A stretch of 10,445 nt of DNA. Source: an uncultured Butyrivibrio sp. (GTDB lineage: Bacteria; Bacillota; Clostridia; Lachnospirales; Lachnospiraceae). Under the pieces are notes generated by a model. That model saw only the letters and a program-made list of their open reading frames with translations. It was not told where the DNA came from and did not search any database. Both the position numbers and the translations under genes were made by a program. Every line of letters begins with the position of its first letter. Within the stretch, counting starts at the first letter, position 1. Positions 4,181-9,052 of the stretch are shown here, piece by piece. The stretch spans positions 1 to 10,445 of the forward strand of contig CAMVRW010000056.1 in NCBI GenBank assembly GCA_947169985.1. The letters are read 5' to 3'.

Positions 4181-4196
4181 GGATCGCATATGTCAA
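4168..4196 (-). promoter_or_regulatory. Perfect consensus sigma-A promoter of the RHH-MBL operon
   Basis: On the minus strand, TTGACA (4196-4191), a 17-bp spacer and TATAAT (4173-4168). Both hexamers match consensus exactly. The -35 box overlaps the stop codon of the upstream YwaF-like gene, so the operon can be transcribed apart from it. Confidence 0.88.
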
Positions 4197-4948
4197 TTTT
4201 TGGGGTTCTCCCACCGCTTCCTTAGCTCTATTCCAAGATAAATGAGAAAGATCACAGCCACAGTCAGCAGGGCATAACCCAAAAGATATCCCGGATTTCC
4301 CATAAATGATGCCATCCAGGAAAGAGGGCTGTTCGGAACCGGCCAGTTCACAAAGAAGTAATTACAGCCAAAGTGCTTATCAAACGCATAGATTGGCGGA
4401 ACTACCACGCACAGGAACAGCAGGCAAAAATGAATGTGCCTGATGGTGGGCCTGATATCCCCACGTACTCGCAGAAGCACCGGATAAAGGATAAGCAGTC
4501 CATGCCAGATATAGCTGTAGATATTCATGAAGTTCCAGACCGGATAATAGACCGTCCAGTCTGCAAACAGAAGTGCTGCCACAGACGCCGGCATTATGAT
4601 GATATATGATATTTCTCCCAAAAGCTCTTTTTCCCATTTGGACGGAATCCATTCTCTTAGAAGGAACACAAATATTCCTATGCTACAGATATGAAGGGGA
4701 AGATATCCGATCCCAAATCGGTGGATGCTGATAAGGAAGGTATCTTTGAAGACCTCCAGCCCCACCATGAAGACAGGCACTAGTTTCAGGAAATGTCTCT
4801 GCTTTCTGTCCTCCAGTCTTTTTATGAAAAAAATAAGGAATACCGTCAGAAGCAGGGTGATAACAACACTCATAAGATGGGCCATTCCAAACAATGGATA
4901 GCCCATCCCTGGTGGTATATCATCCTGTTGCTTCCAAAAGTATTCCAT
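4193..4948 (-). CDS. YwaF/TMEM164-like integral membrane protein (TIGR02206 type)
   Basis: A 251-residue protein with about six to seven hydrophobic helices and short loops. Signature pieces of the YwaF/TIGR02206 group are visible: HLMSVVITLLLTVFLIFFIK (helix 1, 24-43), YLPLHICSIGIFVFL (82-96) with the conserved Pro-Leu-His-x-Cys, WNFMNIYSYIWHGLLILYP (138-156) with its membrane His, and GCNYFFVNWP (194-203). The family is largely uncharacterised in bacteria. The human relative TMEM164 has been reported as an ether-phospholipid acyltransferase using a conserved cysteine, so a lipid role via C88 is a possibility, not a conclusion. AGGAG lies 7 nt before the ATG. It is divergent from the TetR gene, and a palindrome in the shared 144-bp gap makes TetR control plausible. 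Confidence 0.85.
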   Translation of the reverse strand: MEYFWKQQDDIPPGMGYPLFGMAHLMSVVITLLLTVFLIFFIKRLEDRKQRHFLKLVPVFMVGLEVFKDTFLISIHRFGIGYLPLHICSIGIFVFLLREWIPSKWEKELLGEISYIIIMPASVAALLFADWTVYYPVWNFMNIYSYIWHGLLILYPVLLRVRGDIRPTIRHIHFCLLFLCVVVPPIYAFDKHFGCNYFFVNWPVPNSPLSWMASFMGNPGYLLGYALLTVAVIFLIYLGIELRKRWENPKN

Positions 4949-5092: not shown

Positions 5093-5671
5093 ATGAATGA
5101 ATTTGATGAAAGATACAGCACATCAGAGGAAGCGATAGTTAATTCCTTCTTTTTGCTGCTGCGAGATAAAGATATAGATAAGATAACTGTTTCAGATGTG
5201 GTCAAGAAAGCCGGTATAGTAAGGAGCACTTTCTACAACCACTATGAAAATGTGCCTGCCCTTGTGAATGCGGCAGAGGAAAAGACAATTGAAAATATCT
5301 TTTGTCTGATGGAAAGCTTTCACCCCAGGGATGACAAAGAGATCTGTAAATCCTTCTTTTTGGCCATCTGTAATTACACAAGAGAAAATCCCTTTCTTTC
5401 TACACTTCTGAACAGTACAAGGGGCGATGCTTTTTTTGAAAAGATGCTTCTGATGTTTGACAGGTACATGAGAAAGGTTACGGATGACGAAACCTACCAT
5501 ATAGGGAACCGAAAAAGTGCTGCATATTTTATTGCATCGGCAATAGGCAGCACTATCGGTGTTTTACATAAGTGGTCCACTGAAAACTTTGATGCTTCGG
5601 AAGATGAGATCGCTGATATAATGGCTCAGGTCTTTATAACAGGAGTCCTTCCCGGATTGAATTCAAAGTAA
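5093..5671 (+). CDS. TetR/AcrR-family transcriptional regulator
   Basis: A 192-residue protein, typical TetR length. Residues about 11-60 hold the DNA-binding domain: helix 1 (SEEAIVNSFFLLLRDKDIDK), then ITVSDVVKKAGIVRSTFYNHYENV. The latter is the textbook TetR helix-turn-helix 'IT..di...Agi.rsTFY.hY.n'. The remaining all-helical part (CKSFFLAICNYTRENPFLSTLL, ENFDASEDEIADIMAQVFITGVLPGL) would bind ligand and dimerise. It resembles the DhaS-like/TetR_C group common in Firmicutes, whose ligands are mostly unknown. There is only a weak ribosome site (TGGA) before the ATG. Neighbours are the divergent YwaF-like gene and, 15 bp after its stop, the convergent end of the C/ACP/ligase operon. Control of either neighbour is plausible; a fatty-acyl ligand is speculation. 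Confidence 0.9.
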   Translation: MNEFDERYSTSEEAIVNSFFLLLRDKDIDKITVSDVVKKAGIVRSTFYNHYENVPALVNAAEEKTIENIFCLMESFHPRDDKEICKSFFLAICNYTRENPFLSTLLNSTRGDAFFEKMLLMFDRYMRKVTDDETYHIGNRKSAAYFIASAIGSTIGVLHKWSTENFDASEDEIADIMAQVFITGVLPGLNSK

Positions 5672-5686
5672 GTATTAAGCTCTCTG

Positions 5687-7207
5687 TTACGCAGGTATAT
5701 CCTCAGCTGCGTACTGTCTCAGGATCTTCTTGGTGGTGTTCCTTCTGAAAGGATTTTCCCTGATCACAAGATGGGCAATCCTTCTGTAGCCTGGTTGGGA
5801 TTTGTTATACTCATCAAGAAGATTCCACAATTCTTTTTCAAGTCTATCTGTTGTAAGCTTCTTTTTCACCATGTAATCCTGATCGGGATATATTCTGGCT
5901 GTAAGCCCATTACCACCCCCTGTAACAACCACTTCTTCAATGAGCGGATAAAGTGCAAGCTTGTTCTCAATTTCCTCAGGAGAAATATTCTCGCCATTTG
6001 AAAGTATGATGAGATTCTTAACGCGGCCATTGATATAAAGATATCCATCCTCATCGATATAACCTTTGTCTCCAGTATGAAGGAAGCCACCTTCCAGGGT
6101 TTTCGCTGTTTCCTCCGGCATATTGTAATAGCCCTTCATGACACTTGTACTTCGGACCAGGATTTCACCATTTTCAATCCGGACTTCAGCGTTTTTTAAC
6201 ACCTTACCAACAGATCCGCTCCTGTGATTCAATGGAGTGTTAGAACTGATAACAGGGGCACTTTCGCTCATTCCGTAGCCCTCGTAGAGATTTATTCCGT
6301 ACTCCTTGAATTTTTCTACATAGAAGGGATCCAGATGCGCACCGCCTGAAAAAACCGTGGTGAGATTTCCGCCAAAGACCTTTGCAGCAATAAGCTTTTT
6401 AGGCAGAAGATTCCCTACAGAGGTGCTCTTGATCTTTTTATAAATGGTCTCAATCATCATGGGCACCATCAGCATTACATTTGGTTTAAAGAGCTGCATG
6501 TTCTTAACAATGTGCAGCAGGGAATCGTTAATGCATATCGTAACTCCAAGAGTCAGGCACTTTAAGTAGTCCATTACAAGGCAGTAAGCATGGTGAATTG
6601 GCAGCACACTTAGTGTAACCATTCCCGGACAGGCGTCATACTCCACAGCCTCCACGTTGCTCATAAGGTTTTTGTGGGTGAGCATTACACCCTTACTTTT
6701 TCCTGTTGTGCCTGATGTGAAGATTATCATTGCCAGATCGTCTCCAGAGTTTCCAGGAACATCAGGAAGTTCACTGTTGCTGTTTTCAAGGCTTAGAAGC
6801 TCTTCCTGAGCAAGAGTATATATTTTTTCGATCAAAGGACATTTTGCCAATATTTCTTTTGCCATATCAATCTTGCTCGGATCCAGGAATACCGCTCTTG
6901 AATCAGACCTTAGCAAAAGATCTGTTATCTCCTCGTCAGGCAGTAGCGGATCGATCAGCACCGCTGCGTTGTCACCTGATGTAATGGCAAAAAAAGCTGT
7001 GATCCATTCAATTGAACTATAACCAACGATCGCTATGTGGCTGTTTGAAAGGCCATGGGCCCTGAGGCCTTTTCTTGCGTTAGTAACCTGAGTACACAGT
7101 TCGCCGTAGGTCCTCTGATGCACCTCTTTTCCATTGGGCCATTTGATAGCCGGCAGATCGTGGTAGTTACTATCTATGTACTCCAGCAGTTGTCGTATAT
7201 TTTCCAT
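5687..7207 (-). CDS. AMP-dependent fatty-acid-type ligase (stand-alone adenylation enzyme)
   Basis: A 506-residue ANL-superfamily adenylating enzyme with every core motif: P-loop TSGTTGKSKG (164-173), LPIHHAY (202-208), YEGYGMSES (308-316), TGDKGYIDEDG (378-388), the R395 hinge region GRVKNLI, SNGENISPEEIE (403-414), and the catalytic Lys near 493-494 (NTTKKILRQ). It activates a carboxylic acid as acyl-AMP and passes it to a thiol. The A4 region reads LPIHHAYC, as in long-chain acyl-CoA synthetases, and lacks the aspartate that amino-acid-activating domains use to hold the alpha-amino group. A fatty or other plain carboxylic acid is therefore the likely substrate. The upstream carrier protein gene, 25 bp away, makes the ACP the probable acceptor instead of CoA. 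GGAGG precedes the ATG at good spacing. It is the last gene of the operon, and no terminator is seen in the 15-bp gap to the TetR gene. Confidence 0.93.
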   Translation of the reverse strand: MENIRQLLEYIDSNYHDLPAIKWPNGKEVHQRTYGELCTQVTNARKGLRAHGLSNSHIAIVGYSSIEWITAFFAITSGDNAAVLIDPLLPDEEITDLLLRSDSRAVFLDPSKIDMAKEILAKCPLIEKIYTLAQEELLSLENSNSELPDVPGNSGDDLAMIIFTSGTTGKSKGVMLTHKNLMSNVEAVEYDACPGMVTLSVLPIHHAYCLVMDYLKCLTLGVTICINDSLLHIVKNMQLFKPNVMLMVPMMIETIYKKIKSTSVGNLLPKKLIAAKVFGGNLTTVFSGGAHLDPFYVEKFKEYGINLYEGYGMSESAPVISSNTPLNHRSGSVGKVLKNAEVRIENGEILVRSTSVMKGYYNMPEETAKTLEGGFLHTGDKGYIDEDGYLYINGRVKNLIILSNGENISPEEIENKLALYPLIEEVVVTGGGNGLTARIYPDQDYMVKKKLTTDRLEKELWNLLDEYNKSQPGYRRIAHLVIRENPFRRNTTKKILRQYAAEDIPA

Positions 7208-7232
7208 ACTCGTTTCCTCCCAGCAGGTAAGA

Positions 7233-7472
7233 TCAGGCAGTCTTTGCAGCTCCTTCTATAAATACAAGTGCTTCCCCGATTGTTGTTAAGTTTCCGATTT
7301 TTTCAGTATCAATTTCCACATCAAAGTTGTCCTCAAGATCACCAAGCAGTGACATGAAGTCAAAAGAGCTAAGCCCCAGATCCTCCAAAAATCTCATATC
7401 GTTTGTCATATCCTGTGGCTTTACTGTGCAGTACTGGGCCAAAAATTCTTTAAATCTCTTTTCGTTTTTCAT
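7233..7472 (-). CDS. Acyl/peptidyl carrier protein
   Basis: A 79-residue acidic helical protein of normal ACP size. The phosphopantetheine site is LEDLGLSSFDFMSLLGDLED (29-48). The canonical D-S-L reads S35-S36-F37, so the serine to be modified is S36, followed by the usual Asp two residues on. Later FDVEID (50-55) and IGNLTTIGEALVFIE (59-73) match helices 2-4 of ACPs. It needs a 4'-phosphopantetheinyl transferase, which is not in this window. It lies 24 bp after the condensation gene and 25 bp before the ligase gene, with a strong AGGAGGAG ribosome site. It should carry the acyl chain made by the ligase to the condensation protein. The changed serine motif suggests a dedicated carrier and not the housekeeping fatty-acid-synthesis ACP. 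Confidence 0.93.
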   Translation of the reverse strand: MKNEKRFKEFLAQYCTVKPQDMTNDMRFLEDLGLSSFDFMSLLGDLEDNFDVEIDTEKIGNLTTIGEALVFIEGAAKTA

Positions 7473-7496
7473 AGTTTTTTTCTCCTCCTGATTAAC

Positions 7497-8882
7497 TTAT
7501 ACAGTTTCTATTATTTCTTTTAATGTTCTGGAATCATCGCAGATGCCTGTAAAGACTATCCGCATCATGTAGTAGTAGAAAAGCTCGATGTCTTTTTCTT
7601 CAAGAGCCGCTGTCTGGTAGTGATAGGAAAAGTTCAGGCCGTCTTCGTCTGTGTGCGTGACAGTCAGATAAACTTTTTTGGTGGCTGCGCCGTTGGCAAA
7701 CCATTTGAAATACAGCGGAATGCCTGAGAGGTTCATGTTGTCTGCATTTACCTGAAGGGGCTGGTATGTCAGGTAGCAGCTTTCATAGGTGGTTCCATCA
7801 GGAGTGCCAAAGCGCTCTTTTACGGACTTTTTGATGAGCTCAGGATCATAATTGCTATGAAGGTATATGCTGTTCTGCATGTCCTGTATTTCTTTTGCTG
7901 CATCAAAAAAGCTTGTCGCCGGGCTGATCACTGTTCTGCAGGGGAACATTATTGTCCTGCTTCCACCGCTGGTCCACTCATCATGGGTAGACCTTCTTGC
8001 GATGAAGCTCTCTATGGTTATGTCTTCCTGAAGGTCATTTACCTTGGACAGATAAGTCCTCATGGTCAGGAGCAAAAGGTTGTTAAAAGAAATCTTTTTG
8101 CCTGCGCAGTAATCCATTAATTTCTTCGTGGCTTCACTATCCAGCTTGTAATCCTTAACTTCCACAAACAGGTTTTCCTTTTCTATGTCTGCGCTTCGAA
8201 GGCTCTTATCATTATGTCTTTTTCTGGATTCTTCAAGCACCTTTTTCCCCTGAATGTCCGAGTAAAGAGGCTCGCCGTATTTATCAAGAATACTCTCCCA
8301 AAAGGCTCTGTCCTTATCAAAGCGCTTTTGGTTACCGGCCTTTATAAGATCCTTAGTCAGTACCTCTTCAAAGCCCGCAAGCTCCTGGGGATAATCCTTG
8401 CCAAACTTGTAGTGTGCATAGAGTGCCATTATGTCTTTTACCATCACAGCAAGCCCACAGGAATCGATGAGTCTGTGATCCAGATGGGCGAAGAAGCCGT
8501 TATAACCACCAGGCAGCATGACCAGCAAAAACTCGTACATTGCTCTGTCAGCTCCCTCAAAAGTTTCGTAAGCCATGCTCTGGCAAACACTCTCAGCTTC
8601 TTCAAAGGACATTGACGAAAGGTTGAGCAGTTTGATCGTCTTTTGGGATTTACGCTTGAAGTACTGCTTTATCTCTCCATTTTCATCAGGAGCTGTGAAC
8701 CGGAGATTCAGGCACTCATATCTTTTAGTCTCTTCATCTATACACTTATTAAGAAGCATAAAATCAAGGTCCATCTTTACGGCGGCTACGATGGTGACGC
8801 CGCAGACCTGCTGAGTGTTGTACTGCCTTATCCATTGGTAATGCATGTTCTGGGCAGGAGTTAGCGGATATAGTGTTTTCAT
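7497..8882 (-). CDS. Stand-alone condensation-domain protein (NRPS C-domain/acyltransferase superfamily)
   Basis: A 461-residue single-domain protein, the size of one NRPS condensation domain. The N-terminus YPLTPAQNMHYQWI (5-18) is the C1-type 'ypLt..Q..m.' motif. The catalytic stretch is AHLDHRLIDSCGLAVMVKDIMALY (132-155): it keeps the H136-x-x-x-D140 core of HHxxxDG, but the first His is Asp (D135) and the Gly is displaced to G143. The C-terminal half (about 250-461) has the second lobe, ending in YLTVTHTDEDGLNFSYHY and a final helix, as in C domains. It should transfer the carrier-bound acyl group to an amine or alcohol acceptor and so release the product, since no thioesterase or reductase gene accompanies it. 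First gene of the operon; GGAGGAG lies just before the ATG. It could instead be a related acyltransferase (papA- or wax-synthase-like). Confidence 0.85.
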   Translation of the reverse strand: MKTLYPLTPAQNMHYQWIRQYNTQQVCGVTIVAAVKMDLDFMLLNKCIDEETKRYECLNLRFTAPDENGEIKQYFKRKSQKTIKLLNLSSMSFEEAESVCQSMAYETFEGADRAMYEFLLVMLPGGYNGFFAHLDHRLIDSCGLAVMVKDIMALYAHYKFGKDYPQELAGFEEVLTKDLIKAGNQKRFDKDRAFWESILDKYGEPLYSDIQGKKVLEESRKRHNDKSLRSADIEKENLFVEVKDYKLDSEATKKLMDYCAGKKISFNNLLLLTMRTYLSKVNDLQEDITIESFIARRSTHDEWTSGGSRTIMFPCRTVISPATSFFDAAKEIQDMQNSIYLHSNYDPELIKKSVKERFGTPDGTTYESCYLTYQPLQVNADNMNLSGIPLYFKWFANGAATKKVYLTVTHTDEDGLNFSYHYQTAALEEKDIELFYYYMMRIVFTGICDDSRTLKEIIETV

Positions 8883-8912: not shown

Positions 8913-8936
8913 TTAACTGAGTGCAAAGTTATCATA
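8913..8936 (-). promoter_or_regulatory. Tentative -10 box and inverted repeat upstream of the C/ACP/ligase operon
   Basis: On the minus strand TATGAT (8936-8931) could be a -10 box, but no good -35 lies 17 bp before it. TAACT (8914-8918) and AGTTA (8927-8931) form an inverted repeat with an 8-bp spacer at the predicted transcription start, so a repressor site is possible. The rest of the 170-bp leader up to the next gene's terminator shows nothing clearer. Confidence 0.3.
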
Positions 8937-9052
8937 GTTTCCGAGGGGATGAAATACCGTTCAGGATTTAACAAACACTTTGGGGAAAATTGACCGGAAG
9001 ATATCAAACATAAATTGAAAATGTGTAGTATATCTATCTGGCGCAAGGCAAC

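Follow-up and report, generated by a model that had tools for sequence, protein, structure and literature searches.

A putative fatty acid amide operon of the OaaC branch in an uncultured Butyrivibrio sp., with probable TetR control at tandem palindromes

The C, carrier and ligase genes

The stretch of DNA analysed here (10,445 nucleotides of contig CAMVRW010000056.1 from an uncultured Butyrivibrio sp., hereafter the window) belongs to a genome that is 66.85% complete and holds three minus-strand genes for a free-standing condensation protein (C), an acyl carrier protein (ACP, or T) and an AMP-forming ligase (A), together with a convergent TetR-family gene and two tandem palindromic sites, O1 and O2, in front of the C gene (Table 1). 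The first-pass annotation, made from the sequence alone, had described a C/carrier/ligase set with 24-25 bp between neighbours; the open reading frames (ORFs) and Pfam matches show its coordinates and descriptions to be correct, the two gaps being 24 and 25 bp. Judged by this spacing only, the three genes would form one transcript, and the unit probably reaches past 5687..8882, to the TetR gene on one side and to the upstream sites (up to 9032) on the other. The TetR gene and the promoter sites lie outside the coordinates of that annotation and are not mentioned in it.

Table 1. Features of the window discussed in the text, with their positions.
Feature	Position	Strand	Description
Condensation protein (C), OaaC type	7497..8882	minus	461 aa; free-standing; PF00668 (1.5e-30)
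Acyl carrier protein (T/ACP)	7233..7472	minus	79 aa; PF00550 (8.3e-9)
Fatty-acid-type AMP-forming ligase (A)	5687..7207	minus	506 aa; PF00501 (1.4e-64)
O1, upstream palindromic site	9001..9032	minus	family consensus TATCAAACA...TGTTTGATA
O2, second, weaker palindromic site	8968..8996	minus	GGTCANTTT...TGTTCATTAA
Extended -10-like box TATGATAAC	8928..8936	minus	28 bp past the 13-bp conserved right block of O2
TetR-family regulator gene	5093..5671	plus	TetR_C_8; convergent with the ligase gene; conserved neighbour
TMEM164-related membrane acyltransferase gene	4193-4948		divergent from the TetR gene, beyond it

The C protein is 50% identical to OaaC (PDB 12KH) over 456 residues (phmmer E 8.4e-157), and its DHxxxDS-type motif reads DHRLIDS (residues 135-141), that is, the motif (D/H)HxxxD(S/A/G) of fatty acid amide (FAA) enzymes in place of HHxxxDG. 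DHxxxDS is found in 56 of 57 aligned C proteins, the window protein and OaaC counted, and the remaining one has DA. The window protein and OaaC fall in one branch (SH-aLRT, an approximate likelihood ratio test, 98) of a quick, midpoint-rooted tree of 110 proteins, in which OaaC is the sole characterised row and canonical C domains have no place. The 17-residue insertion stretch of OaaC aligns gap-free with the window protein, whose predicted model has a helix at 214-223 (mean pLDDT, the model's confidence score, 84.6), the OaaC counterpart being Gln214-His224; the stretch is called an insertion after OaaC, canonical C domains lying outside the comparison. A canonical condensation domain of a nonribosomal peptide synthetase (NRPS) carries HHxxxDG within a multidomain NRPS with an acceptor carrier, unlike this single-domain protein with its DHRLIDS. 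Identity is 13% to the starter condensation domain of the rhizomide synthetase RzmA (PDB 7C1L), which is part of a multidomain NRPS; such starter domains use an acyl-CoA donor and a carrier-bound acceptor (PMC13142362).

In the ACP, the presumed phosphopantetheine serine sits, as far as the sequence tells, in LGLSSFDF and is preceded by Ser, not Asp. The ligase has its motifs intact (TSGTTGKSKG from 164, GYGMSE from 310, TGD from 378, and Lys494), and it keeps the catalytic residues common to 94 neighbouring ligases, which we picked by position, length and SGTTG motif; the PF23562 match is the C-terminal part of the same enzyme as the PF00501 match. The first-pass annotation had called this ligase a fatty-acid type, and fatty-acid CoA-ligase models do outscore the amino-acid adenylation model, although all stay below their cut-offs: the best NCBIfam model, a long-chain-fatty-acid--CoA ligase subfamily, gives 239.7 bits (cut-off 476), and the amino-acid adenylation model 128.5 bits (cut-off 317.4). 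The A4-like stretch is LPIHHAYCLVMDYLK, within which L-P-x-H-H-x-x-C-L-x-M-D is at least 95% conserved in the 94 neighbouring ligases; the Asp of amino-acid-activating domains appears to be missing from it, as the annotation had stated, on a reading of this sequence by itself rather than of an alignment with NRPS adenylation domains. A C protein outside condensation domains, or a ligase nearer to amino-acid activators, would have told against the annotation; we looked at both points and found neither. Nor did the window genes that we looked at include a thioesterase, a reductase or a phosphopantetheinyl transferase, again as annotated; an ORF of phosphopantetheinyl transferase type (PF01648, 216 aa) lies elsewhere in the genome, on contig C170.

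Kinship to known amide-forming systems

The closest described system is that of Coprococcus eutactus, in which OaaC, OaaACP and OaaA make oleoyl aminovaleric acid; OaaC uses aminovalerate or gamma-aminobutyric acid (GABA) and, with its ACP and ligase, forms fatty acid amides in vitro from free amines (PMC13142362). The window shares with it three free-standing proteins, DHxxxDS, the absence of a thioesterase, the branch on the tree and half of the C residues, and differs from it in the Butyrivibrio-type host and at the 42 positions discussed below. The order of C, carrier and ligase is also that of the CTA operon of Blautia wexlerae and other human-gut Lachnospiraceae, for which acyl-amine chemistry has been described (PMC13060934). 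The enzymology is, thus, already known in kind; the Butyrivibrio-type member of the published FAA/CTA operon is new.

The OaaC match, the DHxxxDS motif and the shared branch support the fatty acid amide reading of the first-pass annotation, and, as far as its proteins' sequences can tell, the operon is very probably one for coupling fatty acids with small amines. For the amide sets of gut Clostridia the annotation had named neurotransmitters among the amines; in this operon we found no pointer to a neurotransmitter amine such as dopamine, and the closest characterised enzyme uses aminovalerate or GABA. By kinship to OaaC, an omega-amino acid or something similar would be the tentative first choice for the acceptor. 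One has to keep in mind, against a simple transfer from OaaC, that the related set departs from it at 42 positions which the set itself conserves (Tyr370 versus Gly, for example), so the acceptor may differ as well. The same enzymes could then use an alcohol or a membrane-lipid head group and give an acyl ester or an amide-linked membrane lipid, a possibility to which these differing positions lend themselves and to which the TMEM164-related membrane acyltransferase gene beyond the TetR gene would add; we consider it quite improbable, since OaaC itself makes amides with free amines (PMC13142362) and the TMEM164-related gene, which we rejected as a part of the system, was not found at the 61 related loci or at 22 newly fetched ones.

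Tandem palindromes and the TetR gene

A conserved element upstream of the C gene, first spotted by eye, resolves into two tandem imperfect palindromes, 33 bp apart from centre to centre, with O2 downstream of O1. An alignment of 39 loci on one block shows some 70 bp of high information content, which drops almost to nil in the flank upstream; the two scored blocks are separated by 9 bp in 29 of 32 loci and by 8 bp in the other 3, and a search that favoured no offset places a TGTGATAAT-like box at offset 28 in 36 of 40. Most of the related Lachnospiraceae loci that extend far enough have the same TetR-type gene right behind the ligase gene and convergent with it, and the recognition region of the TetR protein (GIVRSTFYNHYEN) is among its most conserved parts.

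We compared the occurrence of site and TetR in several ways. By consensus, the element (at least 17 of 22 positions) is present in 31/33 loci with TetR and in 0/15 without, 13 of the 61 loci not being scorable; there is some circularity in this count, the consensus having been drawn from part of the same loci. A weight matrix was trained on the 32 loci having both TetR and element and applied to two held-out sets. Six of eight separately fetched TetR loci (L126-L131, L134, L135; L125 was dropped as a duplicate of L033) beat all shuffled controls of the first test (null maximum 7.5, n = 574), as did six loci too short to show TetR; among 45 loci without a tblastn-detected TetR (L132, L133, L136-L178; some of them cut), L133 alone scored above the maximum. 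The second test started from 22 newly fetched loci, three of them duplicates; 17 of the other 19 have TetR, and 16 of these beat the null maximum (3.5, n = 1100; lowest score 10.4), while both loci without a detected TetR (one cut) fell below it. These held-out tests show conservation rather than independent ancestry, because the loci are kin of the training loci. On the tree, 58 rows (38 with both, 15 with neither, 4 with TetR only, 1 with the site only) could be used; the TetR trait changes four times, which leaves the association underpowered. A Ruminococcus-rich branch, nested among TetR-bearing loci, has neither TetR nor site where scorable.

The pattern was also sought genome-wide. It occurs once in the window's genome, without mismatch, at this operon; the reversed control also gave one match (up to 3 mismatches). 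Across 397 genomes of the family, four places match with no more than one mismatch; three of them, the window's own included, precede a C gene. At two mismatches there are 52 places versus 34 for the reversed control, so most of these look like chance, and a wider regulon is unsupported by the single match in the window's genome and by so slight an excess. Genome G191, which gave no C match, has a perfect O1-type palindrome before a gene that, on our reading, encodes an O-acetylhomoserine sulfhydrylase-like enzyme.

A further line of evidence comes from four loci of the same genus (L222 in G432, L223 in G408, L225 in G426, L226 in G410), which have an intact C gene (DHRLIDS) and a convergent TetR gene with no ACP or ligase between them, hereafter solo-C loci. 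Three of their genomes are 99-100% complete and the fourth 85%; a search with the window ligase returned best matches of only 28, 34, 38 and 28% identity in them, versus 57 and 72% in two full-operon genomes. On the tree, the four solo C proteins group together (SH-aLRT 97) within the full operons, which makes a derived loss likely. This branch, which retains TetR and O2, favours a functional bond of TetR and C.

Several observations weigh against TetR control at O1 and O2. The left half of the window's own O1 has diverged; the solo-C loci have no recognisable O1, and L127, L128, L131 and L210 resemble them in that O2 is the one site in good order. TetR occurs without a site in L134 and L135 (TetR 35-36% identical) in the first test and in L227 in the second (where C and TetR lie on the same strand and an adjacent ACP or ligase is absent), and it is present in L008 and L039, which score 7.2 and 5.6, below the null maximum of 7.5, and had been kept out of training for want of the consensus; L133, conversely, has a site and no TetR that we could find. 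The site changes together with TetR about twice and never oppositely (four branch-disjoint pairs; sign test p 0.5). Lastly, the best solved match of the TetR protein is the uncharacterised TetR protein 3kkc, not the activator DhaS.

The palindromes might be bound by a different, unlinked regulator, the TetR gene being a neighbour by shared ancestry only. The few independent co-changes, the sites of L133 and the site-less L134, L135 and L227 would all fit such a regulator, which we nevertheless regard as unlikely, though far from negligible: the sole mismatch-free pattern of the genome lies at this operon (with the reservation of the reversed control), most near-perfect matches in the family precede a C gene, and TetR and O2 stay with C where ligase and ACP are gone.

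Proposed mechanism and its meaning

Taking genes and sites together, the best joint explanation is that the window carries an FAA ('CTA') operon of the OaaC branch under probable TetR control at the tandem palindromes, to which we give a probability of roughly 0.8. The ligase would use ATP to activate a free long-chain fatty acid and would load it onto the phosphopantetheine arm of the ACP, and the C protein would then join the acyl chain of acyl-ACP to a freely diffusing small amine, amide formation itself freeing the product without a thioesterase. Transcription would proceed from a promoter that has the extended -10-like box and lacks a recognised -35 hexamer; the start is predicted a few bases past the 8936-8928 box, which would place the palindromes upstream of the -35 region. 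The convergent TetR-type protein probably controls the operon at these two sites, most simply as an activator; both its binding and the activation are deduced from the association. The signal could be the fatty acid, the amine or the product, and the operon could serve to detoxify fatty acids or to signal.

Repression is the usual mode of the TetR family and that of most of its characterised members, which would favour a repressor relieved by fatty acid, amine or product. We keep this as a tentative alternative, at less than even odds: the predicted start puts the palindromes ahead of the -35 region; a two-hexamer sigma-70 consensus scan found nothing at the sites on the operon strand, a result that an activator mode would fit; and the relatives of the TetR protein include the activator DhaS, though a distant one. 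The two proteins share the superfamily, and the window TetR has a TetR_C_8 domain, but the match is weak (36.1 bits to the NCBIfam DhaS equivalog DHAK_reg, cut-off 129) and DhaS serves another operon.

We came across no description of TetR-linked tandem sites, solo-C loci or links to hydrolases (see below) in PMC13142362, where a term search gave no TetR, promoter, transcription or operator, or in PMC13060934, where it gave no TetR, regulator, promoter, hydrolase, lipase, rumen or Butyrivibrio. The scope is that of these two texts, with Chang et al. 2021 and PMC11162758 outside it, and we do not claim absence from print. FAAs of gut Clostridia act on host G-protein-coupled receptors in published work; if the operon has its own regulator with defined sites, the bacterium's own use of the amides and the inducing signal become testable questions. 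The solo-C branch, in turn, raises the question of how an amide-forming enzyme works without its partner carrier and ligase, and where its acyl chain comes from. As a speculation that we consider doubtful, C could be in rumen Lachnospiraceae the core of a lipid-sensing switch, in which a cognate TetR activator on tandem operators would answer free fatty acids or the amine and toxic unsaturated fatty acids would be captured as amides beside biohydrogenation, some species being reduced to C and TetR with acyl chains drawn from the ordinary acyl-ACP pool.

Distribution and neighbouring genes

The first-pass annotation had proposed a comparison of gene order, and the C-ACP-A order is indeed found, from genome contigs, in 52 of 61 related loci; of the other nine, most run into a contig end, and L060 is fragmentary. 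A full-length C protein is present in 22 of 61 sampled genomes of the window's genus, its own included, and three more matches there are a fragment or NRPS domains of the ordinary kind; within the genus, the pathway is common, though patchily distributed. Among named genomes, the closest relatives are those of Butyrivibrio, several of them labelled as ruminant gut samples. In the family sample, 67 of 397 genomes match C at E <= 0.001, a count that includes ordinary NRPS domains at its weak end as well as a group of about 33% identity (L140-L176).

This last group has the C motif xHxxxDA (DHMTMDA, for example), an alpha/beta hydrolase (PF12146) in the region about 1 kb upstream of C, at 11-114 bp from it, in 32/37 loci, a different TetR in 30/37 and an SCP2 protein in 20/37; with looser clustering, the TetR-type proteins of two of its loci join the cluster of the window TetR. 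Of the 57 remaining loci, a set mostly from Lachnospiraceae in which the window, cut loci and two distant rows are counted, 24 also have a PF12146 hydrolase near C. In the Ruminococcus-rich branch (L040-L061) a lysophospholipase-like hydrolase lies behind the ligase in 13/18 loci, about 3.2 kb past the C start. The window has no adjacent hydrolase, the best homologue in its genome being 28% identical. Such recurrent recruitment, seen in gene neighbourhoods, may point to a supply of free fatty acid or a turnover of the amide.

Two distinct operon copies (L004 and L056, 79% and 86% identical to the window C) occur in one metagenome-assembled genome, RGIG1500, where they are either true paralogues or the result of mixed binning. 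A C-gene remnant of about 58 codons in a Butyrivibrio relative (L060 and G407:C258:8016-8189) suggests gene decay. The second condensation domain of the window's genome, at G000:C159:336-1541 beside a transporter-like gene, was set aside as that of an ordinary NRPS module with HHxxxDG. Scans of the window for tRNA and Rfam families returned no matches. Upstream of the operon, the window carries a peroxiredoxin-type gene and an MsrA gene.

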